A DNA stretch of 64,000 nucleotides. Origin: Solwaraspora sp. WMMD791 (GTDB lineage: Bacteria > Actinomycetota > Actinomycetes > Mycobacteriales > Micromonosporaceae). Shown here in pieces: positions 16,148-61,042 of the stretch (the stretch's first letter is position 1; every line of letters starts with the position of its first letter). Location: contig NZ_CP120737.1 of assembly GCF_029581195.1 (NCBI RefSeq), positions 6,797,001 to 6,861,000 on the forward strand, given 5' to 3'. The notes beneath the pieces were generated by a model. It was not told the DNA's origin and made no database searches. It saw only the letters and a program-made list of their open reading frames with translations. The position numbers and the translations under genes are program-made.

Positions 16148-16528
16148 ATGGCGATCGACGAGCGCCGTCCATCGTTGCGTCGGTTCCTGCGTCGGCTGGC
16201 CGCCACCGAGGACGAGTTGGACGCCGAGCAGCTGCAGCGCTCCAGCGCCGAGTGCGGTTCGGTGCCCGCTGGGCAGTGTCACCGTGGCGAGCTGGTCTCG
16301 GTGTCCGGTCGGCTGCGTACCGTCGTCTACTGTCCGCGGACGAACCTGCCGACCCTGGAGGCCGACCTCTACGACGGCAGCGACGTCGTCACGCTGGTCT
16401 GGCTGGGGCGGCGGCGGATCGCCGGCATCGAGCCCGGACGCCAGCTCACCGCCCGTGGCCGGGTCGCGGTACGCGACGACCGCAAGGTGATCTACAACCC
16501 GCACTACGACCTGGAATCCCCCAGGTGA
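16148..16528 (+). CDS. OB-fold nucleic-acid-binding domain protein
   Basis: 126 residues from the ATG at 16148; the frame is open far upstream, but only this start has GGAGGGG behind it and matches homologues. After a short helical region (LRRFLRRLAATEDELDAEQL) comes an OB-fold: RGELVSVSGRLRTVVYCP, LEADLYDGSDVVTLVWLGRR, LTARGRVAVRDDRKVIYNPHY. It is the Rv2694c-type protein found between DUF3710 and DUF3159 in actinobacteria. It probably binds single-stranded nucleic acid; direct evidence is lacking. Confidence 0.82.
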   Translation: MAIDERRPSLRRFLRRLAATEDELDAEQLQRSSAECGSVPAGQCHRGELVSVSGRLRTVVYCPRTNLPTLEADLYDGSDVVTLVWLGRRRIAGIEPGRQLTARGRVAVRDDRKVIYNPHYDLESPR

Positions 16529-16595
16529 GCCGGCCGGCGACCGTCGGCCCGGTCGACGCCGCAGGACGGTCGGCGAGGACAGGAGACGGTGGGCG

Positions 16596-17342
16596 ATGAC
16601 GTTCGGGCAGCAGGGTGCCGGTCCGGCGGCGCGGCGCGACGACGTACCGCGGACCGACCGGCCCACGGCGGCGTCGGCGCCGGCGGCGACCGACCCCGAC
16701 GAGGCCGACGAACGGCTGCCGAGCATCACCGAGCAGATGGCCGAGCAGCTGGGCGGCTGGCGTGGCCTCGTCGAGTCCAGCGTGCCGATCGCCGTCTTCG
16801 TGATCTGCAACGTGATCTGGGACCTGTCGGTCGCCCTGATCGCGGCGGTCGGCGTCGCGGTCGGCATCGCCGTGGTCCGGCTGGCGCAGCGGCGCCCCAT
16901 CCGGCATGCGGTCAACGGGCTGTTCGGCATCGGCATCGGCGCGCTGCTGGCCTGGCGCACCGGCGAGGAACGTGACTTCTACCTGCCGGGCATCCTGTAC
17001 GGCATCGGCTACGGCCTGGCCCTGCTCGGCTCGGTGGTGATCCGCCAACCGTTGGTCGGCTGGATCTGGTCGGTGCTGGCCGCCGGCGGCCGCTCCGAAT
17101 GGCGTACCGACCCGGTGTTGATCCGCACCTTCAACCGGCTCACCGTGCTCTGGGGCGTGGTCTGGCTGCTCAAGGTCGGGATCCAGGCCGGCTTCTACGT
17201 CGCGTCGATGGAGACCGCCCTGGGAGTGTCCCGGCTGCTGCTGGGTTATCCGCCGTACGCGGTGCTGCTGGCGATCACCATCTGGGTGGTCCGGCGGGTG
17301 AACCGGCAACGTCAGACCGCCGAGCCGCTGCCGGCGACCTGA
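16596..17342 (+). CDS. DUF3159 family membrane protein
   Basis: 248 residues. After a ~45-residue disordered N-terminus and ITEQMAEQLGGWRGLVESSVPIA comes a polytopic membrane domain with about six helices: FVICNVIWDLSVALIAAVGVAVG, GLFGIGIGALLAW, LYGIGYGLALLGSVVI, LTVLWGVVWLLKVGIQ and YAVLLAITIWVV. This fits DUF3159 (Rv2693c position). A role as an intracellular-septation-A-like or transport protein has been suggested by fold only. It starts 67 nt after the OB-fold gene and belongs to the same transcription unit. Confidence 0.82.
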   Translation: MTFGQQGAGPAARRDDVPRTDRPTAASAPAATDPDEADERLPSITEQMAEQLGGWRGLVESSVPIAVFVICNVIWDLSVALIAAVGVAVGIAVVRLAQRRPIRHAVNGLFGIGIGALLAWRTGEERDFYLPGILYGIGYGLALLGSVVIRQPLVGWIWSVLAAGGRSEWRTDPVLIRTFNRLTVLWGVVWLLKVGIQAGFYVASMETALGVSRLLLGYPPYAVLLAITIWVVRRVNRQRQTAEPLPAT

Positions 17343-49457: not shown

Positions 49458-50156
49458 TCAGTAGTCGTAGTCGCCCGAGTCGCTGTCGGAGTCGGCGTCC
49501 TTGTCCGAGTCCTTGCTGTCGAGGCCCTTGATGTTGTCGCGGCCGTCGCCGTCCGGCACCGCGATCGGCTTCGGCGTGCCCTCCGGCAGGCATTCGAGGT
49601 TCTTCGAGCCGTCCGGCTGGACGACGAACCAGGTGCCACCGACGCCCTGGCCCTTCCAGTCGCCGGGCTTCTCGTCGCCCGCGTAGTAGTAGATCGGCCA
49701 TCCGTCGATGGTCAGCTGCCGGGTGCCGTCGGGCCGGTTCACCGTACCGACCAGCTCCTCGTCCACGCCGGACAGGATCGGGTCGCCGTCGGTCAGGGCC
49801 GGCGGCCAGATCTTGGCGCAGTCGCCCTCGCAGTTCGACGCCGGCGGGTCGTCGGTGTCGTTCTCGAAGCGGTAGAGCAGCCAGCCGTCCTCGTCCGTGA
49901 CGACGTTACCCATCTTGTCGACAGCCTTGCCGACCAGTTCCTTGGTGAGGTCCTCGTCGGCGACGTCGACGGCGACGTCATCGGTCTCGACCGGCTCGGG
50001 CGCGGCCGAAGCCTGCGCCGCGTTCGCCGCGTTGACGACCGGCTGGGCCTGAGCGCCGCCAAAGTCGTCCGGGTTGTAACCTGCCGGGGCGCAACCCGGC
50101 AACACGAGTGCCGCCAGCGCGCCTGCGACTATGACGGTCCGCTTTCCCAGTGCCAC
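49458..50156 (-). CDS. Secreted-repeat lipoprotein (COG4315 type)
   Basis: 232 residues from the GTG at 50156 (GGGAGGG upstream). Signal peptide RTVIVAGALAALVLPGC with the lipobox Cys near residue 21. Two copies of the secreted repeat of COG4315 follow: NVVTDEDGWLLYRFENDTDDPPASNCEGDCAKIWPPAL, with the typical Y-x-F-x-x-D and C-x-x-x-C-A-x-x-W-P-P, and a second ending in GWPIYYYAGDEKPGDWKGQGVGGTWFVV. The acidic C-terminus (KDSDKDADSDSDSGD) is disordered. Such proteins are surface lipoproteins of unknown role, often near ECF sigma genes, as here. Confidence 0.85.
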   Translation of the reverse strand: MALGKRTVIVAGALAALVLPGCAPAGYNPDDFGGAQAQPVVNAANAAQASAAPEPVETDDVAVDVADEDLTKELVGKAVDKMGNVVTDEDGWLLYRFENDTDDPPASNCEGDCAKIWPPALTDGDPILSGVDEELVGTVNRPDGTRQLTIDGWPIYYYAGDEKPGDWKGQGVGGTWFVVQPDGSKNLECLPEGTPKPIAVPDGDGRDNIKGLDSKDSDKDADSDSDSGDYDY

Positions 50157-50257
50157 GTGCCCTCCCTCATTCGTCCACATCGGGCTTCATCTAGAGGTAC
50201 GCACCATCAGCAGGATTGGATCGGCAATAGCGAGTGCACAATTTCACATGTGCTGGT

Positions 50258-50441: not shown

Positions 50442-51320
50442 TCAGACCGGTACCGTCACGAGTGCCGTGGCCACGCCGGACTGGTCGACGGCCTGCACCT
50501 GGATCCGTTCGATGTCGTCGCGTGGTGCCGCGGTGGACGTCGTCAGCAACAGTGGGGCGGGCTGTTCGGGCGTGCCGTAACCGGTTTCCGGCACGGCCCA
50601 GGTGGAGAGCACCTCGGCGGTGCCGCTGGCCCGGATGACCACCAGCCGGCACTGCATCGGTCCCGGTACCCTGCGCAGCGCGAAGGACACCTGGGTACCC
50701 CACCCGGCCTCCTCCAGCACCACGTCCGCCTCCACGCCGGTGGTCGGGTCGACGGTGCTGAACTTCTCCCCGGTCACCTCCGGCCCGCCGACCCCGGACT
50801 GTGGACCGAGCGGGGACGGGCCGGCGGTGACCGACGTGCCACCATCGGCCTGCGGCACCGTGGTGGTGTCCGCGCCGAACCACTGCGCGCCGACCAGGAA
50901 CGAGCCGCCGGTCAGGGTCGCCATCAGGACGAACCCGGCAGCGATCTGCGCCGGACGACTGGCCAGCAACCGTCGGCGGGAGCTACGGGCGCGGTCGAGC
51001 GGAAGGACCTGACCGTGGTCGCGGCGCCGGTCGGTGCCGGACTCGCCGCCGGCCCAGGCGGGCGGCGGCACGTCGTCGCCGCTGTCGGTCGCCCCACCAG
51101 GCAGGTCCACACCGGCGGGGCTGTGCGGAGGGAGGGCGGAACTGCCCTCCAGCTGACCGATGTCCACGGTAGACATCAATCCGACGATCGGGATCAGGGA
51201 CTCGAGTTCGGCGGCGCAGGCCCAGCAACCCGCGAGGTGCTCCTCGAAGCGCTCCACGTCGTCGGCGTCGAGCGCGCCGAGGGCGTACGCCCCGACGTCC
51301 CAGTGTGCGGACCGTGTCAT
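50442..51320 (-). CDS. Zinc anti-sigma factor, membrane-anchored
   Basis: 292 residues; its ATG overlaps the sigma factor stop (ATGA). The cytosolic N-terminal domain has HWDVGAYALGALDADD and FEEHLAGCWACAAEL, the HxxxCxxC zinc site of ZAS anti-sigma factors. After a ~60-residue linker there is a membrane helix (QIAAGFVLMATLTGGSFLVG, about 126-145) and an extracellular beta domain (VSFALRRVPGPMQCRLVVIRASG to the end). It should hold the ECF sigma inactive until an envelope or redox signal is received. The arrangement resembles SigL-RslA. Confidence 0.9.
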   Translation of the reverse strand: MTRSAHWDVGAYALGALDADDVERFEEHLAGCWACAAELESLIPIVGLMSTVDIGQLEGSSALPPHSPAGVDLPGGATDSGDDVPPPAWAGGESGTDRRRDHGQVLPLDRARSSRRRLLASRPAQIAAGFVLMATLTGGSFLVGAQWFGADTTTVPQADGGTSVTAGPSPLGPQSGVGGPEVTGEKFSTVDPTTGVEADVVLEEAGWGTQVSFALRRVPGPMQCRLVVIRASGTAEVLSTWAVPETGYGTPEQPAPLLLTTSTAAPRDDIERIQVQAVDQSGVATALVTVPV

Positions 51321-52012
51321 TCCGTTACCCCCCGCTGTTGCAGCGCCGTCCGCAGCGCACGTAGCGCGTAGTAGACCCGCGACTTCGCCGTACCCAGTGG
51401 CAGCCCCAGCTCCTGTGCCGCCTCGGGGACGGTGCGTCCCCGGAAGTACGTCTCGATCAGGATCTCCCGGTGCGGCTGGCTCAACGTCCGCATGGCGTCG
51501 GTCACCGTCATCTGACGCAGCACCTGATCGGTGCCGTCGGACTCGGCGAAACTCTCCAGGTCCCGGTCGTACTCCTCGGTCGGCCGGGCCTTCTCGCTGC
51601 GGTGGTCGTCGATGGCGATCCGCCGGGCGACGGTGACCAGCCAGGGGCGCAGCGACGCCTGCCCCTGGGCACCGAGCCGGTGGGCGTTGCGCCACGCCCG
51701 TAGCAGTGTTTCCTGGACGATGTCCTCGGCCCGCTGCCGGTCCCCCCCGGTCAGCCGGAGCACGAACCCCAACAGGGGTCGGGCGTGTTCGGCATACAGC
51801 GTGCGGACGAGATCGTCCCCGTGGCTGGACTCCGGCGTCCCGGCCTGGTGCCGGCTGCGTGCAGTCCGTGACGTCACCGGCTCATCATCGCGCTCGGCCG
51901 CCCTCCCGTCGATGGTCTGCCAACGTTGCATGGCCCTGATGGCTGGCGACCCGCTGCCGGTCACGCCTGGCCGGACCGTCTCCGCCTGCCAGCCGCTCGC
52001 GACCGCATACAT
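51317..52012 (-). CDS. ECF-family RNA polymerase sigma factor, SigL/SigK-like
   Basis: 231 residues from the ATG at 52012, which has GGAGG seven bases upstream; later ATG 51931 and GTG 51877 lack SD sites, so a ~70-residue N-terminal extension is predicted. Region 2 spans VRTLYAEHARPLLGFVLRLTGG, RAEDIVQETLLRAWRNAHRL and RPWLVTVARRIAIDDHRSEKARP; region 4 has MRTLSQPHREILIETYFRGRTVPEAAQELGLPLGTAKSRVYYALRAL. It directs transcription of an envelope-stress or redox regulon. Overlap with the anti-sigma gene (ATGA) couples their synthesis. Confidence 0.92.
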   Translation of the reverse strand: MYAVASGWQAETVRPGVTGSGSPAIRAMQRWQTIDGRAAERDDEPVTSRTARSRHQAGTPESSHGDDLVRTLYAEHARPLLGFVLRLTGGDRQRAEDIVQETLLRAWRNAHRLGAQGQASLRPWLVTVARRIAIDDHRSEKARPTEEYDRDLESFAESDGTDQVLRQMTVTDAMRTLSQPHREILIETYFRGRTVPEAAQELGLPLGTAKSRVYYALRALRTALQQRGVTE

Positions 52013-52050
52013 CGCAGGACCTCCATCCGACGTCACCTGACGGCCCGCGG

Positions 52051-52068
52051 CTGGGGGCCCACCCCCAG
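52051..52068 (-). repeat. Short perfect hairpin in the sigma factor leader
   Basis: CTGGGGG (52051-52057) pairs with CCCCCAG (52062-52068) around CCCA. It lies between the stop of the spermidine-synthase-like gene (52093) and the sigma ATG (52012), so it could weaken read-through from the upstream gene. Confidence 0.5.
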
Positions 52069-52096
52069 ATACGGAGCCGACCGGCGGACGGATCAA
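52067..52096 (-). promoter_or_regulatory. Possible promoter for the ECF sigma operon
   Basis: On the minus strand TTGATC (52096-52091) and GTATCT (52072-52067) are 18 bp apart. The -10 overlaps the short hairpin at 52051-52068. No copy of the TGAACC...CGT ECF pattern is seen here, so autoregulation by the sigma is not supported by this stretch. Confidence 0.35.
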
Positions 52097-52950
52097 AGCC
52101 CATTCGGAAAAGTTCCGTCGGGTGGTGGCGGCGACGGCGTGGCGGTGGCGTCGTCGATCGGTACCGCCGCCGCGATCAGCTGGTCGAGCGCGGCACCGTG
52201 CACCACCCGGCTGGGGAACCAGTCCCCGGCGGCCCGCCGGGTCAACTCCGCGACCTGCGGCAACGTGCGTGCGGCGACCACCACGAGGTTGCCGTACCGG
52301 CGTTGTCGCAGCACCGCCGCGTCCGCGATCAGGCAGATGCCGGGCAGCACCTTCCGGACCGACGCCAGGTGTCGCCGGGCCCAGTGCAGCGGCGGCCCGT
52401 CGGCGACGTTGGACACCAGCTGCCCGCCAGGGGCGAGCACCCGGGCCACCTCGGTCACGAACTCCACCGAGGTCAGCTCCGCCGGGGTGCGGGCACCGGA
52501 GAAGACGTCCGCGATCACCAGGTCGTAGCTGCCGGTACGGGCCTGCTCGACCGCGCTACGGGCGTCGCCGATCCGGACCCGCAGGTTGCGGTCGGCCGGC
52601 AACGGCAGTTCGCGGCGGACCAGCTCGGTCAGCGCGGAGTCGATCTCCACCACCCGTTGGTGCGACCCGGGCCGGGTCGCCGCCAGGTAGCGCGGCAACG
52701 TCAACGCGCCGCCGCCCAGATGCAGCACCCGCAGCGGTACGCCCGGGTCGGCGGCCAGGTCGACGGCGGCAGCGATCCGCCGGACGTACTCGAACTCCAG
52801 ATGCGTCGGATCGTCCAGGTCGACATGTGACTGTTGGGTCCCGTCCAGCAGCAGGGTGTAGCCCCGGCGGCGGTCCGGATCCGCGACGAGTTGCGCGGTG
52901 CCGGTGTCGACCTGGACCGGCGGCGGTACTGTCCTACGAGCGCGGCCCAC
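52093..52950 (-). CDS. Spermidine-synthase-like Rossmann methyltransferase-fold protein
   Basis: 285 residues from the GTG at 52950, chosen because CATACT ends six bases before it (leaderless pattern). GYTLLLDGTQQSHVDLDDPTHLEFEYVRR is the SpeE gate and N-domain; LRVLHLGGGALTLPRYLAA binds the decarboxylated-SAM-like cofactor; VVEIDSALTELVRREL and YDLVIADVFSG (catalytic-site Asp) follow. Actinobacterial relatives of this length are often not true aminopropyltransferases. It lies just after nurA on the same strand; its function in that context is unknown. Confidence 0.75.
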   Translation of the reverse strand: MGRARRTVPPPVQVDTGTAQLVADPDRRRGYTLLLDGTQQSHVDLDDPTHLEFEYVRRIAAAVDLAADPGVPLRVLHLGGGALTLPRYLAATRPGSHQRVVEIDSALTELVRRELPLPADRNLRVRIGDARSAVEQARTGSYDLVIADVFSGARTPAELTSVEFVTEVARVLAPGGQLVSNVADGPPLHWARRHLASVRKVLPGICLIADAAVLRQRRYGNLVVVAARTLPQVAELTRRAAGDWFPSRVVHGAALDQLIAAAVPIDDATATPSPPPPDGTFPNGL

Positions 52951-53020
52951 GGTGGCAGTATGCCGGTACCGCTCCGGACATCCGGCGGCGGACGGGCTCA
53001 ACGCGCGGCGGCCGACCGGC

Positions 53021-54022
53021 TCATCGCCGGGCGGCCGACAGGCTCAACGCCCGGTGCAGCAGTCGGGCGTCGCCGAGCATCGCCCGCAGCCGCCGCTCCA
53101 GCCCGGCGATCGGCACCAGGTTCTGCGGCGCGCGGGGGTCCTTGTACGGCGTCGAGGCGAACCGGGGCAGCACCGCCAGCGAGAGATCGGCCAGGGCGAT
53201 CGCCGCCTGCGCCGTGATGTCCGGCCGGCACTCCACCCGGACGATGCCGGCCCAGGGAGCCCCGCGTGGCCCGGGCAGCCGCAGGTACCACGAGTAGGTT
53301 CGCCACCGGGTGCCGTGCAGGAACACCGGACTGCGTTCGGCCGGTCGCAGCCCGGTCACCACCGGGAGCAGGTTTGCCGGCAGGTACGTCTTGCTGACCG
53401 ACTTGATGTAGCCGACGGTGTTCGGCAGCTGCCGACCGCGTAGCGGACCGTCCACCACCAGCAGTTCGTCATCGGCGCTGTCGGCACCGGCCCGGGCCTG
53501 CTCGGACACGGCGATCTCCAGCGCGGCCAACGCCGGCTGCACCACCTGCGGCAATGTAGCCGGATCCGGGTGGTCGACCCGCCGCGCCGGGTAGCGGATC
53601 TGCCCGACGGTCAGGTCGGTCGCGGCGGCGCTCGGAGTGAACAGGCCGCGCTCCGGCCGCGCTCCGGCCAACGTCGCCGCCCCTGCGCGCAGGTCGCAGC
53701 GGACCACACCGGCCGCGTACGAGGCGGCGATCGCCGGATAGGACACTCCGTCCGGTTCGTCGCTCCACAACGACGCGTCGATCCGGCGTACCCCGTCGAC
53801 CAACAGCACCACGTCCGGTGCCCGCACGTCGGCGGGCTGCCGCAACGCCTGCCAGGCAGCGGGATCCAGCTCCACCGCGAGATCGGTGGCGTCCGAGCCG
53901 TCGTCGGTCGTGCCCGGCGCCCCCGCTTCGGATGCTTCGAACGACGTGCCGTAGCCGGGCTGCCAGCCCTCGACGAACCAGCGGACACCGCCGCCCGGCT
54001 GCTGAGGCGGCCCGCCGGTCAC
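53021..54022 (-). CDS. nurA: NurA-domain nuclease
   Basis: 333 residues. The RNase H-like NurA core is visible: the first metal Asp76 in VVLLVDGVRRID, LLVVDGPLRGR near 190, GYIKSVSKTYL near 204, YLRLPG and then the acidic IVRVECRPD near 262. NurA is the 5'-3' nuclease that works with the HerA translocase in archaeal end resection. Its GTG overlaps the sbcC stop (GTGA), and herA, sbcD and sbcC precede it in the same operon. The first ~50 residues are Gly/Asp-rich. The family call is from motif reading; context makes it strong. Confidence 0.8.
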   Translation of the reverse strand: MTGGPPQQPGGGVRWFVEGWQPGYGTSFEASEAGAPGTTDDGSDATDLAVELDPAAWQALRQPADVRAPDVVLLVDGVRRIDASLWSDEPDGVSYPAIAASYAAGVVRCDLRAGAATLAGARPERGLFTPSAAATDLTVGQIRYPARRVDHPDPATLPQVVQPALAALEIAVSEQARAGADSADDELLVVDGPLRGRQLPNTVGYIKSVSKTYLPANLLPVVTGLRPAERSPVFLHGTRWRTYSWYLRLPGPRGAPWAGIVRVECRPDITAQAAIALADLSLAVLPRFASTPYKDPRAPQNLVPIAGLERRLRAMLGDARLLHRALSLSAARR

Positions 54023-56559
54023 AGCCCGCTCCGGTGCACCCGCGCGGTCCGGGCGTCCTTGCGGACCTCGAAGCGTACCGGCACCCGCGCGGCGAGCGCC
54101 GGTACGTGGGTGACGATCCCGACCACCCGGTCACCCCGGGCCGCCAACCCTTCCAACGTCGCCGCGACCGTGTCCAACGTGGCCGCGTCGAGGGAGCCGA
54201 AGCCCTCGTCGAGGACGATCGACTCCAGGCTTGCCGCGCTGGTCGACATGCCCGCCAACTGCTCCGACAACGCCAGGGCCAACGCCAGCGACGCCTGGAA
54301 CGTCTCCCCGCCGGACAGGGTGCGCACACCTCGGCGCAGCCCCGCGTCGTGATGGTCGACGACGAAGAACTCACCCGCGTCGTGCACCAGCTCGTACTGG
54401 CCGTTGGACAACTCCTGCAGAATTCGCGACGCCCCGTCCACCAGCAGGTCCAGCGCCTCGACCAGCAGCCACCGCTCAAAGTTGTTCGCCCGCAGGTGCC
54501 CCGCGAGGGTCCGGGCCAGCTGCGCCTGCCGCTCCTGGTCGGCGCGGCGCTGCCGCAGCTCGCCCACCTGGGCGAACCGTTCGACGAGCCGGTCGTGGTC
54601 GCTGCCCGCCCGCTGCACCGCCAGCGCGGCGGCCTGCCGGTAGGCCGCCGGGTCGACCGCCGAGCGGGCACCCGACCCACCGTCGTCGGCGCCGCCGTGC
54701 CGGGCGTCGGGTACCGGCACCGGCTGACCGGCGGCGACGAACAGGGCGTCGATCCGGTCGGCGACGGCGGCGGCCGACTCCCGAGCGTTCGTCAACTCCT
54801 GGTCCGCGCGGATCTGCGCCGCCCGGCGGTCGGTGACCAGCGCGTCCGCCCAGTCGGCCAACTGCGCCCAGGCGCCGGCCAGGTCACCACGTTCGGCGGC
54901 GGGCGGTGCCAGCCGCGCCACCGCGTCGCGGACGGCGTCGAAGTCCCGCCAGGCCGACTGCAGCCGCTGTTCGCTGGCGGCGGCGGCCCGCTGCGCCCGG
55001 CGGGCGGCCTCCCGGGCCTGCCGGACCTGACCGCCGGCGGTGTCGAGCCGGTCCTGCAGCCGGTCGACCGCCGCCAGTTCGGCGTGCAGCGCCTCGCTGC
55101 CGGGCGAGGCGGCCACCTCGCGGTCGAGCTCGGCCAACCGGCCCGCCAGTTGCTCGGTGCGTACCCGGGCGCGGTCGACGGCCCGGTCCACCTCGCGCAG
55201 TGCCTGCTCTGCGTCGGTGACCGCCTGACGGGTCTGGTCGGCGACGGCCCGGGCCGCCAGGCCGGCGGCCTTCGCCTCGGCGACCCGGGATCCGGTCGGC
55301 TCCGGTGGCAGCACCTGCACCGGCTGGGCGCAGACCGGGCAGTCCGCCCCGGCGACGAGGTCGTGGCGCAGCGCGGCGGCCTGGTCGGCGGCCTGCGCCT
55401 GCTGGTACGCGCGGCGGGCCTGTTCCAGCGCGGCGTCGGCTGCCTCGGCGCGGGTCCGGACCGCCCGCAGCGCCGCCTCGCCGGCGGCCTGCTCGGCCTG
55501 CGCGGTGGCGAGCGCCGGAGCCAACTCGGCGATCTCCGCCGCGACCCGGTCCCGTTCGGTGTGCGCCTGCAGCAGCAGCCGCAGGGCGGCCGGATCACCG
55601 GCGGCGGCCAGTTCGGCGCGGACCTTCTCCTCCCGTTCCTCGGCGGCGAGCACCGCGCGGTCGGCGTCGGCGGCGGTGGTCCGTGCCCGGGCCACCTCGT
55701 CGGCGAGGACCGTCGCCGACGCCGGCGGTGTCACGCCGGCCAACAGGTCGATCTCCGCGGCCAGCTCGGCGACCCGGTCGGCGACCGTGGTCACTGTCCG
55801 CTGTGCCTGCTCCAGCTCGGGCAGTACGTCGTCGACCGCGTCCGCCAGCGTCCGCATCGCCTCGACATGTGCCGCCGCGGCGGCCACCGCGTCGGCGTCG
55901 GCGTCGGTCAGCCCGCCGAGCAGGTGGTCGACCGCGGCCATCGCCGCCTCGGCGGCGCCCGCGCGGGCGGTGGCCCGCTCCCGGACCTGCTCGTAGACGT
56001 GCAGCCCGAGCAGGTTGACCAGGATCTGCTGGCGGGTGGCCGGCTTGGCGTGCAGGAAGTCGGCGAACCGGCCCTGGGGCAGCAGCACACAGGTGGTGAA
56101 CTGCTCGTACGGCAGCCCGACCGCCTCCAGCACCGCCTGCTCCATCTCGGCCGGACTGCCGGCGAGCACCTCACCGAGGTCGTCCGGGCTCATCCCGGTG
56201 TCCAGCCGGGTCACGTCGAACCCCGGCGGCATCAGCTGCAGACCGGCGCTGCCGGTCTTGACCGCGCCCCGGGCGTCGCGGCGCACCACCCGGGTGGCCA
56301 CGTAGCGGCTGCCGGCGCTCTCGAAGACCAGCCGTACCCGCGCCTCGGTGGCCGACGGTGCCAGGGCCGAGCCGATGCCCCGGCTGCTGCCCCAGCGGGG
56401 TACCTGGCCGTACAGGGCGAAGCAGATCGCGTCGAGGATGCTCGACTTGCCCGACCCGGTCGGCCCGACCAGGGCGAAGAAGTCGGCGTCGGTGAAGTCC
56501 ACCGTGGTCTCTTCCCGGAACACGGTGAATCCGGCCAGGTCCAGGCGCAGCGGCCTCAC
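54019..56559 (-). CDS. sbcC: Exonuclease subunit SbcC (Rad50-like ATPase)
   Basis: 846 residues. An SMC-like ATPase: Walker A GPTGSGKSSILDAICFALYG near 31, two long coiled-coil arms rich in A/E/R/D, the zinc hook CPVCAQPVQ near 404, the ABC signature LSGGETFQASLALALAL near 750 and Walker B SIVLDEGFGSLD near 780, ending in the D-loop and H-loop region VGIVTHVPALA. It pairs with SbcD to open and trim DNA ends and hairpins. The GTG overlaps the sbcD stop (GTGA). It is shorter than E. coli SbcC (1048), with shorter arms. Confidence 0.95.
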   Translation of the reverse strand: MRPLRLDLAGFTVFREETTVDFTDADFFALVGPTGSGKSSILDAICFALYGQVPRWGSSRGIGSALAPSATEARVRLVFESAGSRYVATRVVRRDARGAVKTGSAGLQLMPPGFDVTRLDTGMSPDDLGEVLAGSPAEMEQAVLEAVGLPYEQFTTCVLLPQGRFADFLHAKPATRQQILVNLLGLHVYEQVRERATARAGAAEAAMAAVDHLLGGLTDADADAVAAAAAHVEAMRTLADAVDDVLPELEQAQRTVTTVADRVAELAAEIDLLAGVTPPASATVLADEVARARTTAADADRAVLAAEEREEKVRAELAAAGDPAALRLLLQAHTERDRVAAEIAELAPALATAQAEQAAGEAALRAVRTRAEAADAALEQARRAYQQAQAADQAAALRHDLVAGADCPVCAQPVQVLPPEPTGSRVAEAKAAGLAARAVADQTRQAVTDAEQALREVDRAVDRARVRTEQLAGRLAELDREVAASPGSEALHAELAAVDRLQDRLDTAGGQVRQAREAARRAQRAAAASEQRLQSAWRDFDAVRDAVARLAPPAAERGDLAGAWAQLADWADALVTDRRAAQIRADQELTNARESAAAVADRIDALFVAAGQPVPVPDARHGGADDGGSGARSAVDPAAYRQAAALAVQRAGSDHDRLVERFAQVGELRQRRADQERQAQLARTLAGHLRANNFERWLLVEALDLLVDGASRILQELSNGQYELVHDAGEFFVVDHHDAGLRRGVRTLSGGETFQASLALALALSEQLAGMSTSAASLESIVLDEGFGSLDAATLDTVAATLEGLAARGDRVVGIVTHVPALAARVPVRFEVRKDARTARVHRSGL

Positions 56560-57707
56560 GACGAGGTCACCTCCTCGTAGAGGGTGTCGAACAGGGCGCG
56601 GACCCCGTCGTCGTCCTGCCCGCGCGCCTCGAGGTAGTCGGCGAACAGCACGCCGGGGTCGCGTCCGGTGCGCTGCGCGGTCCGGGCGGGACCGACCTGG
56701 GCACGGGCGAACTCCGGGTCGATGCGGACCTCCAGGGCCCGGGGCAGCAGCTCCTGCACCTGTTCGCGCAGCCCGGCCCGGGGCACCTCCCGGATCAGGA
56801 CCCGCAGCCAGGCGTCGCCGTGGTCGCCGGCGGCCAGCTCCGCCAGGGTGCCCCGGACGGTACGCAGCGTCGCGGCGGCGGTGACCGGCACGTCGCGTAC
56901 CCGGGCGGCGGTGGTGGCGCTGACGTCGACCAGGCTGACCGACGGTACGTTCTCCTCCTCGCCGAAGTCGACCGCCAGCGGGCTGCCGCTGTAGCGCACC
57001 GGACAGGGCGCCTCCAGCTGCTGCGCCCGGTGCAGGTGGCCGAGAGCGACGTAGTGCGTGCCGGTCGGGAAGACCGTCGCCGGTACGGCGTACCCGAGAA
57101 CGGTGTGCACCTCGCGCTCGCCGCCGCCGGAACGCCCACCGACCACGGTCAGGTGCGCGGTGATCAGATCGACCACGCCCGGTTCACCGGAGCCGTCGGT
57201 GAGCCGGGCCAGCACCCGGGCGACGTGGTCGGCGTAGGTCTGGGTGGCCTCGGCGGCGGTCAGCTGGTACATCTCGGTGGCCCGTACGGCGTACCGCTGG
57301 GACAGGAACGGCAGCGCGACCAGCCGCCACCGTTCGCCGCCGCCGGTGACGCCGGTGACGACGTGCTCGTCCGGGTTGTCGCGGACCGTGCCGCGCAGGG
57401 TGATCCCGGCGGCGTCGGCCCACGGCCGCAGCGCGTCCAGCGCGGCCCCGTTGTCGTGGTTGCCGCCGATGGCCACCACGGCGGCCCCGGTGGCACGCAG
57501 CGCGGTCAGCGCGCGGGTGACCACGCGGGTGGCGTCCGGCCCGGGGGCGGAGGTGTCGTAGAGGTCACCGGCGACGATCACCAGGTCCGGGCGTTCGGCA
57601 CGGGCGATCTCCACCAGCTGGGCGAGCACCTGGATCTGCTCGGGCAGCCTGGGCTGTCCCTTCAGGACCTTACCGACGTGCCAGTCGGAGGTGTGCAGGA
57701 TCCGCAT
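56556..57707 (-). CDS. sbcD: Exonuclease subunit SbcD (Mre11-like phosphoesterase)
   Basis: 383 residues from the ATG at 57707 (AGGAGG about ten bases upstream). The calcineurin-like nuclease motifs are complete: Asp8/His10 in TSDWHVGK, Asp48 in VAGDLYD, Asn83/His84 in GGNHDN, ITAHLTV, and GHLHRAQQ. The C-terminal capping domain ends with FADYLEARGQDDDGVRALFDTLYEEV. It is the Mn2+ nuclease partner of SbcC. It begins 25 bp after herA. Confidence 0.95.
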   Translation of the reverse strand: MRILHTSDWHVGKVLKGQPRLPEQIQVLAQLVEIARAERPDLVIVAGDLYDTSAPGPDATRVVTRALTALRATGAAVVAIGGNHDNGAALDALRPWADAAGITLRGTVRDNPDEHVVTGVTGGGERWRLVALPFLSQRYAVRATEMYQLTAAEATQTYADHVARVLARLTDGSGEPGVVDLITAHLTVVGGRSGGGEREVHTVLGYAVPATVFPTGTHYVALGHLHRAQQLEAPCPVRYSGSPLAVDFGEEENVPSVSLVDVSATTAARVRDVPVTAAATLRTVRGTLAELAAGDHGDAWLRVLIREVPRAGLREQVQELLPRALEVRIDPEFARAQVGPARTAQRTGRDPGVLFADYLEARGQDDDGVRALFDTLYEEVTSS

Positions 57708-57732
57708 CCGGGGGGACCTCCTGAGCCTTGGG

Positions 57733-59481
57733 TCAGAACGGGATGTCGTCGTCGCTGATCGTCGACCGGCTGCCGACCACCGCGAACGGGTCAGCCGACT
57801 GCACGATGGAGCGCAGCGTGCCCGACGGCGCGGCCCCCGCCTCCGACGAGCGGGTGGCCCAGGCCGGAAACGGGAACTCCAGGCAGAGCGGGACCGGGAT
57901 GTCCGGCTGGTTGACGAACATCGTCCCCGGCTTGGCCAGCAGCACCCGTTGGCGCTGCACGGCCGGCAGGAAGCCGTACTCCGGCCGGGACGCCTCGGCC
58001 GGGTCGAGCCGGCCGACGACCCGGATCGCCGAGTTGGTGACGATCCGCCGCTCCACCTCGCTGGCGGTCTGCTGGGCACCGATCAGGATCACCCCGAGGG
58101 AACGGCCCCGCTCGGCGATGTCGAGCAGCACCTCCTTGATCGGTGACGACCCGTCCCGGGGGGCGTACTTGTTCAGCTCGTCGAGCACGACGAACAGCAA
58201 CGGCTTTGCGGTGCCGGCCCGCTCCTTGCGCTCGAACTCGCCCTTGAGCGTGACGCCGACCACGAACCGCTGCGCCCGGTCCGGCAGGTTGTGCAGGTCG
58301 ACCACGGTGACCTGGGCGCTCTCTGCGGTGCTGATCTGGTGCGGGCGACGGCTGGCCAGGTCGCCGCGGATCAGCCGGGCCAGGTCCCGTTTGCTGCCGA
58401 TCAGCCGACGGGCGAAGGCGTTGACGGTGCCCATTCCGACCGCCGACCCGGCCCACGCCGTCCGGGTCTCCTCGTCGCCCAACTGGTCGACGATGTGGTC
58501 CACCAGGTCCGGGTACGAGTGGATCCGGCGCCCGTCGAGGCTGATGCCGCCGTCGGCCGGCTGCGCGTGCCGGTGCAGGTACGCGGTGACCGCGTGCACC
58601 ACCATCGTGTACTGCTGACGTTCGTCGTCGGCGTCGGCGAACACGTACGGCAGCAGCCGCTGGTCGCAGAACTCGGTGACCGTCCAGTAGAAGCTGTCCA
58701 CGCCGGTGAGCCGGCTGGTCACGTCGGGCGTGCCGGAGGCGTCGCCGGCCCGGGGCGGGGCGTAGACCCGCACATCGGGAAAGGCCCCGGCGGGCAGGCC
58801 CAGCTTGGCGTACGCGGCGGTGGTGGCCTCGTCGAGCCGGACGTTGGGATGGTCGAGGAAAAGCAGGTCCTCGCCCTTGACGTTGAAGATCAGCGCTTTG
58901 GCGTTGACCGCGTCACCACCGAGGGTGCCGGAGCGGAACACCGAGTAGAGCAGGAAGGTGGCGAAGCTGGTCTTGGTGGCGACGCCGGAGATGCCGGAGA
59001 TGGACACGTGCGCGCCGCGCTGACCGTCGAGGAAGTCGGCGTTCAGGTAGACCGGCACCCCGTCGCGGCCGGTGCCCATCGGGATCCGGCGCTCCATCCG
59101 GTCGAAGTGCAGGGCGCGGGCCCGGGCGTCGCCCTGGGCCCGCCAGACCGGTGCGCCCGGTGACGGCGGTACGTAGATCTCCGGGTCGACCCGGGTGGCG
59201 GTGACCTCGGCGGCCTCCTGAACCTGGGCGGGCAGGGTGCCGTCGGCGATGGCGAACACGTCGGAGTCGAACTGCGCGCCCTCGTGCCGGGCGCGCACCT
59301 GGGTGACCACCCCGGCGATCGTCACCGGCTCGGCTCCCGGCAGCTCGCGGCGGGTCACCACGACGTCGTCGAGCTGCAGGTAGTTGTGCTCGTCGACCGC
59401 TGTCCAGAACTGCAGCGGGGTGGCGTCGGCGGTGCCGAGCACCCGGCCGACCGGGGTGCCCTCCGGCGTCGCATCACTCAT
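57733..59481 (-). CDS. herA: HerA-like DNA translocase ATPase (HAS-barrel/DUF87)
   Basis: 582 residues; ATG at 59481 with AGGAC upstream. An N-terminal HAS-barrel (about 1-110) precedes a FtsK/HerA-type motor: P-loop SISGISGVATKTSF near 160 (GxxGxxxKT), Walker B LLFVVLDELNKYAPRDG near 436, and the HerA-like LGVILIGAQQTASEVERRIVTNSAIRVVGRLD that carries sensor and arginine-finger residues. HerA forms hexamers that push DNA through NurA during resection. It heads the operon herA-sbcD-sbcC-nurA. Confidence 0.85.
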   Translation of the reverse strand: MSDATPEGTPVGRVLGTADATPLQFWTAVDEHNYLQLDDVVVTRRELPGAEPVTIAGVVTQVRARHEGAQFDSDVFAIADGTLPAQVQEAAEVTATRVDPEIYVPPSPGAPVWRAQGDARARALHFDRMERRIPMGTGRDGVPVYLNADFLDGQRGAHVSISGISGVATKTSFATFLLYSVFRSGTLGGDAVNAKALIFNVKGEDLLFLDHPNVRLDEATTAAYAKLGLPAGAFPDVRVYAPPRAGDASGTPDVTSRLTGVDSFYWTVTEFCDQRLLPYVFADADDERQQYTMVVHAVTAYLHRHAQPADGGISLDGRRIHSYPDLVDHIVDQLGDEETRTAWAGSAVGMGTVNAFARRLIGSKRDLARLIRGDLASRRPHQISTAESAQVTVVDLHNLPDRAQRFVVGVTLKGEFERKERAGTAKPLLFVVLDELNKYAPRDGSSPIKEVLLDIAERGRSLGVILIGAQQTASEVERRIVTNSAIRVVGRLDPAEASRPEYGFLPAVQRQRVLLAKPGTMFVNQPDIPVPLCLEFPFPAWATRSSEAGAAPSGTLRSIVQSADPFAVVGSRSTISDDDIPF

Positions 59482-59583
59482 TGTGATGTCCTGATCGCTG
59501 CATCTCGCGTCGCTTCGTTCCCACGGGTTGCATCCTGCCCCACTGGTACGACTCCGGCCGCATCCGACCCGGGGTCGGGCGCG

Positions 59584-60348
59584 TCAGTCGGGTCGGGTGT
59601 AGCGCAGCAGCAGCATGCCGTCGTCGGCGGCCAGCACCTGGTGCAGCCGCATCGGGCGGACCGGCCCGGACGGCCCGGCGGTGATCCGGCCGGCGCCGGC
59701 GCCGGCGAGCAGCGGCGCGACGGTCAGGCAGAGTTCGTCGACCGCGTCGACGGCGGTCAACGTACCGAGCAGCAGCGGGCCCCCCTCGCAGAGCAGTTGG
59801 CGCAGGCCGCGGTCGCGCAGCGCGTCGAGCCCGGCGGCGAGGTCGACGGTGTGCTCGCCCGCGACGACCAGGTCGGCCACCGGCGCCAGCCGGGTCCGCC
59901 GGTACGCGGGCGCGTCGGTGGTGGTCAGCACGATCGGCCGGACCGGCGCGTCGGCCAGGGCCGGCAGCGCGGGATCCAGATCCAGGGAACCGGAGACGAC
60001 CACCAGGGTGGGTTGGGCCGGTCGACCCTGACGCTGGCGCCAGTCGCGTCGCCGTTCGTCGAGGCGCAGCGGGCGGTACTGCTCCTGGCGCAGCGTGCCG
60101 GCGCCGACCAGCAGCGCGTCGCAGAGCATCCGCAGGATGCCGAAGACCCGCTTGTCGGCGTCACCGGACAGGCCGGCCGAGCGACCGTCGACCGCCACCG
60201 CGCCGTCGGTGCTGGTCACGAAGTTGGCGCGCAGGTGCACGTCGGTGGTGACGGCGTACGCGTCGACGAGCCCCTGGTCGTCGAGCGGGTCGCTGGTGGG
60301 CCCGGGGGAGAGCCGGCGGATCGCCGCCGCTGCCGTGGCGGTGCTCAT
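59584..60348 (-). CDS. RibD-like pyrimidine/dihydrofolate reductase-fold protein
   Basis: 254 residues from the ATG at 60348. RANFVTSTDGAVAVDGRSAGLSGDADKRVFGILRMLCDALLVGAGT is the N-terminal part of the RibD_C (DHFR-like) fold; LVVVSGSLDLDP, the NADPH site LLCEGGPLLLGTL and the C-terminal LRYTRPD fit. M. tuberculosis Rv2671, in the matching position, can supply dihydrofolate reductase activity, so a role in folate or riboflavin reduction is plausible. Its start overlaps the stop of the 39-codon gene upstream (ATGA). Confidence 0.82.
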   Translation of the reverse strand: MSTATAAAAIRRLSPGPTSDPLDDQGLVDAYAVTTDVHLRANFVTSTDGAVAVDGRSAGLSGDADKRVFGILRMLCDALLVGAGTLRQEQYRPLRLDERRRDWRQRQGRPAQPTLVVVSGSLDLDPALPALADAPVRPIVLTTTDAPAYRRTRLAPVADLVVAGEHTVDLAAGLDALRDRGLRQLLCEGGPLLLGTLTAVDAVDELCLTVAPLLAGAGAGRITAGPSGPVRPMRLHQVLAADDGMLLLRYTRPD

Positions 60349-60464
60349 TCGCCGGCCGGACCGGTGACCGGGGGGACCGGGGCGGGGGTACGGTGCTGAC
60401 AATCGCACCAGTTACCGCCTCGACACTTTTCGTGCTGGTGTTCCCGGCACGCACGGCAGATCAT
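60345..60464 (-). CDS. 39-residue zinc-finger peptide
   Basis: A short gene on the minus strand, ATG at 60464 and stop overlapping the reductase start (ATGA). The peptide has the metal-ligand pattern CRACREHQHEKCRGG then NWCDCQH: CxxC, HxH, C and CDCxH within the first 24 residues, followed by a Pro/Val-rich tail. TAGGCT ends seven bases before the ATG and there is no SD site, so it is the leaderless first gene of a two-gene unit with the reductase. I recall similar tiny Cys/His peptides in actinobacteria but no function. A structural zinc peptide or metal sensor leading the reductase mRNA is possible. Confidence 0.65.
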   Translation of the reverse strand: MICRACREHQHEKCRGGNWCDCQHRTPAPVPPVTGPAGE

Positions 60465-60496
60465 GAGTCCGAGCCTAGGCCAGAGAAAGGGCCGGT

Positions 60497-61042
60497 ATGC
60501 CTCGTCAGATCTTCCATCTGCTGGTCACCCTCGCCGAGGTGGCGCCGCCGGTCTGGCGCCGGGTGCAGGTGCCGGGCGGCTACACCCTCGACCGCGTGCA
60601 CCGGGTGATCCAGCACGCCATGGGCTGGCAGGACTGTCACCTGCACTCCTTCGAGATCAACGGCGCGCAGTACGGCGAGCCGGATCCGGACGGCGAGCTG
60701 CTGCTGCGCGACGAACTGGACACCCGGTTGGACGCGGTCGCCAGCAAGGGCACCCGGTTGCGCTACACCTACGACTTCGGTGACTGGTGGGAGCACGACG
60801 TCGTGGTGGAGGACGTCGGCGCGCCCGAACCGGATATGCGCTATCCGTACTGCGCCGACGGGGAGCGGGCCTGCCCGCCCGAGGACGTCGGCGGTGCGTT
60901 CGGTTACGTCGAGTTCGTGTCCGCGATCGCCGATCCGGCGCATCCTCGGCATACCGAGATGCGGGGCTGGGTGGACCGCCGGTTCGATCCGGCCGCTTTC
61001 GACCCGGGCCGGGCCACGACGCTGCTGCGCCGGCTGACCTGA
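60497..61042 (+). CDS. Plasmid pRiA4b ORF-3 family protein
   Basis: 181 residues; ATG at 60497 with GAGAAAGGG upstream. FHLLVTLAEVAPPVWRRVQVPGGYTLDRVHRVIQHAMGWQDCHLHSFEI, LRYTYDFGDWWEHDVVVED and PPEDVGG are the conserved blocks of the pRiA4b ORF-3-like family (PF07929). A second part, YVEFVSAIADPAHPRHTEM, completes it. The family is widespread on plasmids and chromosomes with no established function. It is divergent from the small zinc peptide gene, 32 bp apart, so the two promoters overlap. Confidence 0.9.
   Translation: MPRQIFHLLVTLAEVAPPVWRRVQVPGGYTLDRVHRVIQHAMGWQDCHLHSFEINGAQYGEPDPDGELLLRDELDTRLDAVASKGTRLRYTYDFGDWWEHDVVVEDVGAPEPDMRYPYCADGERACPPEDVGGAFGYVEFVSAIADPAHPRHTEMRGWVDRRFDPAAFDPGRATTLLRRLT

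Follow-up and report, generated by a model that had tools for sequence, protein, structure and literature searches.

Do the genes herA, sbcD, sbcC and nurA, which lie side by side in Solwaraspora sp. WMMD791, form a unit that processes DNA ends, and what would such a unit do in a genome that also encodes an AdnAB-like pair? The host is a filamentous soil bacterium whose genome is one 6.93-Mb contig (NZ_CP120737.1), and the genes occupy the minus strand of the 64,000-nucleotide stretch analysed here (positions 6,797,001 to 6,861,000, hereafter the window). They are herA (57733-59481, 582 aa), for a predicted DNA translocase of the Deinococcus HerA type; sbcD (56556-57707, 383 aa), for an Mre11-type nuclease; sbcC (54019-56559, 846 aa), for a Rad50-type ATPase with a zinc hook; and nurA (53021-54022, 333 aa), for a putative RNase H-fold nuclease of the bacterial NurA type. 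A gap of 25 bp separates herA from sbcD, and overlaps of 4 bp each join sbcD to sbcC and sbcC to nurA, with MRILHTSDWH taken as the start of SbcD within a longer open frame. All four frames are present as a first-pass annotation, made from the sequence, had described them. We favour, as the probable answer, a chromosomal DNA-end-processing unit of the DNA-damage response that works beside AdnAB.

Linkage and distribution of the four genes

All 150 sampled genomes of the Micromonosporaceae (code f1, and 'the family' in all counts), from 38 of 38 genera, contain nurA, three of them with one internal stop codon in the gene. The named loci are the best 80 of 515 named NurA relatives (L040-L119), all Micromonosporaceae; the order herA-sbcD-sbcC-nurA is found in 74 of them and the remaining six are cut by a contig end, because of which the linkage is not a matter of chance and the quartet is conserved as a unit. 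No probability is attached to these counts, since the genomes are related and cannot be treated as independent. In a class sample of 246 genomes, NurA is present in 16 and full-length HerA (E < 1e-100) in 15, all among the 16; HerA gave 48 matches at E 1e-3, of which only the 15 below 1e-100 were counted, the rest being short and weak. All four genes are on one strand in window order in 15 of the 16; the exception, G245, lacks herA and retains only a broken remnant of nurA. The median gene spacing is 13, -1 and -4 bp. The remnant of G245 lies at 16490-16923 of locus L143, with no herA, sbcD or sbcC in the 20 kb read and with AdnB present; its family (code f17) and genus (code g46) also include genomes that carry all four genes.

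The association extends to the phylum. Among 246 genomes of a phylum sample, NurA (E 1e-3) occurs in 49, HerA (E 1e-30) in 50 and both in 48. The contigs of both HerA-only genomes end in sbcD or sbcC, before the position of nurA, and the single NurA-only genome has weak HerA and SbcD matches beside NurA, as a NurA-HerA-SbcD row. Loci were read in 33 of the 47 NurA-positive genomes of other classes. Ten have the window order (one of them, L176, with HerA in pieces), and 17 have a second order, nurA-herA-sbcD-sbcC (in L200 with SbcC in two pieces). Three more show sbcD-sbcC-nurA with herA further away on the same contig; the last three consist of one at a contig end, one lone nurA with herA on another contig, and one weak case. 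A quick NurA tree of 57 rows places the two orders on either side of one branch (Shimodaira-Hasegawa-like approximate likelihood-ratio test, SH-aLRT, 99), where L185, its order not seen, was counted with the first order; the HerA tree of 44 rows has long branches and needs two order changes.

The four genes are therefore found together wherever nurA had enough contig, except in a few families with herA apart, and the quartet proposed at first pass is borne out. The accompanying view that bacterial HerA-NurA is limited to some bacteria such as Deinococcus and Thermus proved too narrow: a 2021 review (PMC8708640; articles are cited by PubMed Central number and for the passages drawn on) names HerA/NurA in Cyanobacteria, Actinobacteria and Firmicutes. 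Such passages already describe the quartet of archaea, an Oceanithermus hepA followed by sbcD-sbcC, and the presence of HerA/NurA in Actinobacteria; what is new is the reach of the quartet in Actinomycetota and its two permuted orders there.

Predicted properties of HerA and NurA

For window HerA no Pfam match comes close to a cut-off, and NCBIfam and PADLOC give only weak ones. The HerA family profile, in contrast, matches chain B of entry 7f6d in the Protein Data Bank (PDB) with E 1.2e-182 and 611 bits; this is D. radiodurans HerA, also present in 7wrw and 7wrx. Profile positions 7-560 align to residues 9-609 of the chain, so that both the N-terminal HAS barrel and the ATPase domain are covered, with 52.3% identity to D. 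radiodurans HerA over 541 aligned positions. The D. radiodurans residues K175, T176, K217, D220, D487, E488, R495, R513 and R552 are matched and invariant in 33 homologues; in window numbering the invariant residues include K170, T171, D434, E435, D205, R460, R442 and R499, a set that covers the Walker A K/T, the Walker B DE, the catalytic D, the trans-acting R and the DNA-moving R. In D. radiodurans, mutants of R495 or R552 lose 5' resection (PMC9960219). The P-loop (K170/T171) and the LDEL motif (D434/E435/L436) noted at first pass are both present, and the unusual P-loop GISGVATKTS is shared with D. radiodurans HerA and kept in 18 sequences, one reading GVSGVATKTS. On this alignment we assign window HerA to the solved D. 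radiodurans type. Of the four proteins HerA is also conserved best, with best-segment identities of 82-89% across the named family loci, against 68-78% for SbcD, 57-66% for NurA and mostly 56-67% for SbcC.

NurA is more divergent. The window protein passes the Pfam NurA model PF09376 narrowly (E 5.9e-5, 23.1 bits, cut-off 21), and this model matches only four of 13 aligned NurA sequences even at E 0.1. The NurA family profile matches 7f6d_H with E 6e-38 and Thermotoga maritima TM1739 with E 0.0024, and identity to D. radiodurans NurA is 31.1% over 280 positions. D76, E169, D191 and E264 are invariant in the 13 aligned sequences, window included, so that the acidic pattern seen at first pass is not lost in orthologues and 53021-54022 retains its NurA-domain match. 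Furthermore, D76, K207 and R297, which correspond to D. radiodurans D53, K201 and R309, are invariant in 34 homologues, and nuclease activity is lost when D53, K201 or R309 is mutated (PMC9960219). An AlphaFold2 model from 39 sequences has a predicted local distance difference test score (pLDDT) of 82.4 and a predicted template-modelling score (pTM) of 0.80, with pLDDT below 50 for residues 291-303, which contain the invariant KDPRAPQNL stretch. The best Foldseek match of this model is 7f6d_G (E 5.5e-18, TM 0.65), followed by 1zup, and the predicted fold agrees with a NurA of the D. radiodurans type. As the catalytic residues of both proteins are intact, motor and nuclease should work.

SbcD and SbcC

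These two proteins look ordinary for their families. SbcD matches NCBIfam TIGR00619 above its cut-off (E 1.1e-49) and has all five phosphoesterase motifs (SDWH at 7, GDLYD at 47, GNHD at 82, AHLT at 184 and GHLH at 223), as the first-pass annotation had it; among 89 homologues DxH, GNHD and GxxH are kept in 89, GDxxD in 87 and AHLT in 75. SbcC matches TIGR00618 with E 7e-77 and 259 bits, below the full-length cut-off of 478.5, and contains Walker A at 32, the CPVC zinc hook that had been claimed for it at 407, LSGGE at 748 and DEG at 784. In SbcC homologues longer than 700 aa, Walker A, LSGGE and LDEGFG occur in 87 of 87 and the hook in 86 of 87. At E 1e-3 the genome gave no second SbcC match.

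A promoter-like site before the first gene

A conserved element, TGTCR(T/C)A(C/T)-8 nt-CAnnATG, lies upstream of herA; in 73 of 76 family loci, window included, at least 11 of its 15 core letters are present. The window copy, AGTCGTAC-8 nt-CAGGAT, is at 59532-59553 on the minus strand, 50 nt upstream of the herA start codon. The consensus of the LexA-independent damage promoter is tTGTCRgtg - 8 nt - TannnT (PMC5656591), and this promoter is the target of PafBC (PMC6789036, PMC8223512); the family consensus TGTCGTAC-8-CAnnAT agrees with the core and spacing of this RecA-NDp type and is thus a predicted site of that kind. The fixed pattern TGTC[AG]N3-N8-[CT]AN3T was then counted against shuffles that preserve base composition only, the family loci being related. 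It is found in 68 of 75 family loci with the window excluded (0.37 expected), in five of nine loci of the first order in other classes (0.04 expected) and, before nurA, in seven of 17 loci of the second order (0.11 expected), that is, in 12 of 26 loci of other classes, L176 left out. When the spacing was varied from 4 to 12 nt, these 26 loci gave 12 matches at 8 nt and none elsewhere; 73 named family loci gave 66 at 8 nt, 24 at 11 nt, five at 5 nt and one at 9 nt, so that the clean 8-nt result is limited to the other classes. A damage-type promoter-like site before the first gene of either order is, to judge from these patterns, the second new element of this work.

The background of the pattern in family loci is 0.0084 per 270 bp, and it is absent upstream of sbcD (0/74), sbcC (0/75) and the downstream spermidine-synthase-like gene (0/43); matches upstream of nurA in 20 of 80 regions all come from a single conserved coding segment within sbcC. 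In four of four family genomes tested, recA too is preceded by a site of this kind, and tandem WYL frames resembling pafB-pafC occur in 12 of 12 genomes searched. Sigma-70 hexamers were not found within 51800-60500 of the window. Control by LexA was considered and rejected, since simple LexA-box consensus patterns occur in none of 89 herA upstream regions, the window being counted twice (as itself and as L039). Genome-wide, the pattern with at most one mismatch gave 104 matches in four genomes versus 25 for the reversed pattern. Ten downstream frames chosen from 30 loci were scanned with Pfam: RecO appeared twice, PriA and an ATP-dependent DNA ligase once each, and the others were EPSP synthase, MFS (twice) and three frames without a Pfam match. 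Given these non-repair genes, the one-mismatch pattern is not specific to repair genes. The individual sites, from other Micromonosporaceae genomes (L211, L221, L219 and L207), precede recO in two genera (in L221 185 nt away, with one mismatch), priA and the ligase gene. The distribution suggests a wider LexA-independent repair regulon, with other matches of the pattern preceding non-repair genes. Our literature search found no paper joining PafBC with NurA, Micromonospora with NurA, or HerA/NurA/SbcD with Actinobacteria.

Coexistence with AdnAB-like proteins

Mycobacterial AdnAB carries out end resection in actinobacteria (PMC8223512). In the genome studied here, UvrD helicase and PD-(D/E)XK domains occur together in each of two neighbouring frames, and this tandem pair is taken as a putative AdnAB, judged by Pfam domains only. 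The quartet would share the end-resection role with mycobacterial AdnAB, but its motor and nuclease belong to other families. An AdnB match at E 1e-30, in some cases partial, is present in 48 of 63 NurA-positive genomes and absent in 15; all seven NurA-negative genomes chosen for comparison have one. The proposal that the quartet acts together at DNA ends in parallel with AdnAB therefore holds as far as the conserved unit and coexistence at the level of genes.

Neighbouring genes and plasmid copies

Downstream of nurA, on the same strand, lies a spermidine-synthase-like gene (52093-53001; PF01564, E 8.8e-7), of which it had been said that it may or may not belong. Such a gene is located within 800 bp after nurA in 40 of the 80 named loci; the 13 loci from other Actinomycetes families (L026-L038), some of which end near nurA, gave no such gene. 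It was rejected as a fifth member and probably stands outside the core unit. Beyond it are a sigma-70 family factor (51317-52096) and a frame encoding a zf-HC2 zinc finger, an arrangement known from sigma/anti-sigma pairs (pair region 50442-52096), and a Lipoprotein_15 repeat protein (49458-50180).

Both orders also occur on plasmids. A linear plasmid of Streptomyces sp. BB1-1-1 carries herA-sbcD-sbcC-nurA (L250, 7878-15447), adjoining TIGR02680, TIGR02678 and DUF2397 genes, which we take to be Wadjet parts, and an ImmA/IrrE peptidase. No promoter pattern was found before herA of this plasmid, where HerA is annotated as 'ATP-binding protein' and NurA as 'hypothetical protein'. On a conjugative plasmid of the cyanobacterium Sphaerospermopsis, nurA-herA-sbcD-sbcC is found (L251, 5946-12946); the 346-aa frame before herA matches the NurA profile with E 1e-43, and nurA and herA are annotated as hypothetical.

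Comparison with known systems

D. radiodurans HerA-NurA is a 6:2 assembly that cuts the 5' strand in an ATP-dependent manner in vitro (PMC9960219; PDB 7f6d, 7wrw, 7wrx). The window proteins resemble it in their near full-length homology, catalytic residues and P-loop. In D. radiodurans one deletion removed nurA and herA 'as an operon', whereas in the window they flank sbcDC. The archaeal HerA/NurA/Mre11/Rad50 operon has the same four functions in one operon, and its four genes are co-induced by UV (PMC8708640); it differs in that the window has bacterial-type SbcCD and another kind of promoter site, and archaeal and bacterial NurA-HerA share less than 20% identity (PMC9960219). A contact between Mre11 and HerA is reported for Sulfolobus acidocaldarius (PMC2288612). 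Closest in arrangement is Oceanithermus profundus, in which sbcD and sbcC lie downstream of the herA homologue hepA (PMC5448004). The same source places nurA before hepA in Thermus; by analogy, nurA may precede hepA in Oceanithermus as well, which would give the second order, whereas in the window nurA is last. The passages of PMC5448004 drawn on here mention no promoter.

Possible functions of the unit

In the reading that we favour, SbcC-SbcD would recognize blocked, hairpin or protein-bound ends and cut them, and would then hand the opened end to HerA-NurA, where the HerA hexamer would thread the duplex into a NurA dimer. NurA would cut the 5' strand while HerA moves, leaving a 3' single strand for RecA. 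Transcription would probably be raised via the PafBC-type, LexA-independent damage promoter before the first gene, and the unit would work beside AdnAB, perhaps on ends that are closed to AdnAB entry. A more far-reaching version, in which we place slightly less than even confidence, sees a PafBC-controlled, LexA-independent, damage-inducible SbcCD + HerA-NurA resection machine in Actinomycetota as the bacterial counterpart of archaeal Mre11-Rad50-HerA-NurA, acting beside AdnAB in most carriers and replacing it where it is absent, with an interface rewired relative to Deinococcus.

Several observations weigh against a plain end-processing role. In D. radiodurans, knocking out nurA and herA together raises resistance to UV and mitomycin C ~10-fold, and the effects of HerA-NurA in Thermus and Deinococcus are called controversial in the same paper (PMC9960219); a plain pro-repair role is therefore not the known phenotype, and the resistance of the double knockout lowers our confidence both in the favoured reading and in its more far-reaching version. 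Among the ATP-site, DNA-moving and nuclease residues named in PMC9960219 and mapped here, all are invariant in 33-34 homologues except R154, which, like R96, is not kept at the aligned position, although R96A causes no defect in D. radiodurans (PMC9960219). The interface mapped in D. radiodurans, HerA D78/E80/D81 with the basic NurA motifs 1-4, is retained in part: on the HerA side D78 is kept, E80 is replaced by F (window F76, invariant in the 33 aligned homologues) and D81 mostly by A or L, and on the NurA side K306 and R336 are kept, K299 is mostly R, and K303, H305, R337 and motifs 1 and 2 are not kept. The window itself differs from D. radiodurans in two of the three HerA acids and in NurA motif 2. 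Such residues align poorly in other bacteria by that paper's own account (PMC9960219), and the contact, if HerA and NurA bind, would thus be partly rewired. Linkage is looser in two families: in f49 herA and sbcD are 2.8 to 14 kb apart or lie on different contigs, and in f64 herA is at a distance of 0.4 or 2.8 kb or on a separate contig. As to the promoter-like site, the initial T of TGTC is replaced in the window, which leaves this copy a single base away from the pattern; the six other genomes read from the host genus share the change and keep the rest of the site. The strict pattern occurs in only one of 11 loci of other Actinomycetes families, and the 400 bp before adnA gave no such site.

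The resistance of the double knockout (PMC9960219) would fit a role of HerA-NurA as DNA pump and nuclease at stalled forks or in chromosome segregation, with SbcCD cutting hairpins or linked structures and AdnAB resecting breaks, and the presence of an AdnB-like protein in 48 of the 63 NurA-positive genomes points the same way; set against this are the RecA-NDp-type site shared with recA and the 15 genomes with no AdnB match at E 1e-30, and we regard this alternative as unlikely, if the most serious of the three. Less likely again is that the four genes merely belong to one repair regulon, SbcCD and HerA-NurA being two separate machines without direct contact. The partial retention of the interface and the distant herA of several f49 and f64 genomes agree with such a separation, and the connection of SbcCD to HerA-NurA in D. 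radiodurans is left open in the passages of PMC4663267 drawn on here; the recurrence of the same four genes in two permuted orders with frequent short overlaps, and the position of these orders on two sides of one NurA-tree branch, argue against two separate machines.

A defence complex against phages or plasmids, which the first-pass annotation had also entertained, has very little probability and was rejected. HerA-based anti-phage systems exist, HerA-Sir2 among them, and the window protein shares with MADS mad8, PADLOC HerA and TdpAB a HerA-type ATPase and, with some, a nuclease partner. The profile matches are weak, however (best mad8, E 1.2e-8; HerA model, E 1.8e-5), PADLOC has no match for window NurA, and the fold of the NurA model resembles TdpAB only weakly. 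The Streptomyces quartet beside presumed Wadjet genes and the second order on a conjugative cyanobacterial plasmid speak for a link to defence; HerA is nevertheless matched in only two of 50,697 phage records (E 1e-10; one over at least 80%) and six of 72,556 plasmid records (E 1e-20), and the quartet is not patchy within the family, where every sampled genome has nurA and most loci have the damage-type site. We thus return to the chromosomal end-processing unit as the reading of choice.

These proteins also expose an annotation gap, with only four of 13 NurA sequences matched by the Pfam NurA model at E 0.1 and uninformative labels on the plasmid HerA and NurA. Where the role of bacterial HerA-NurA is controversial (PMC9960219), the quartet with SbcCD and a damage-type site gives a clear, testable hypothesis, for which Micromonospora and Actinoplanes would be culturable hosts.

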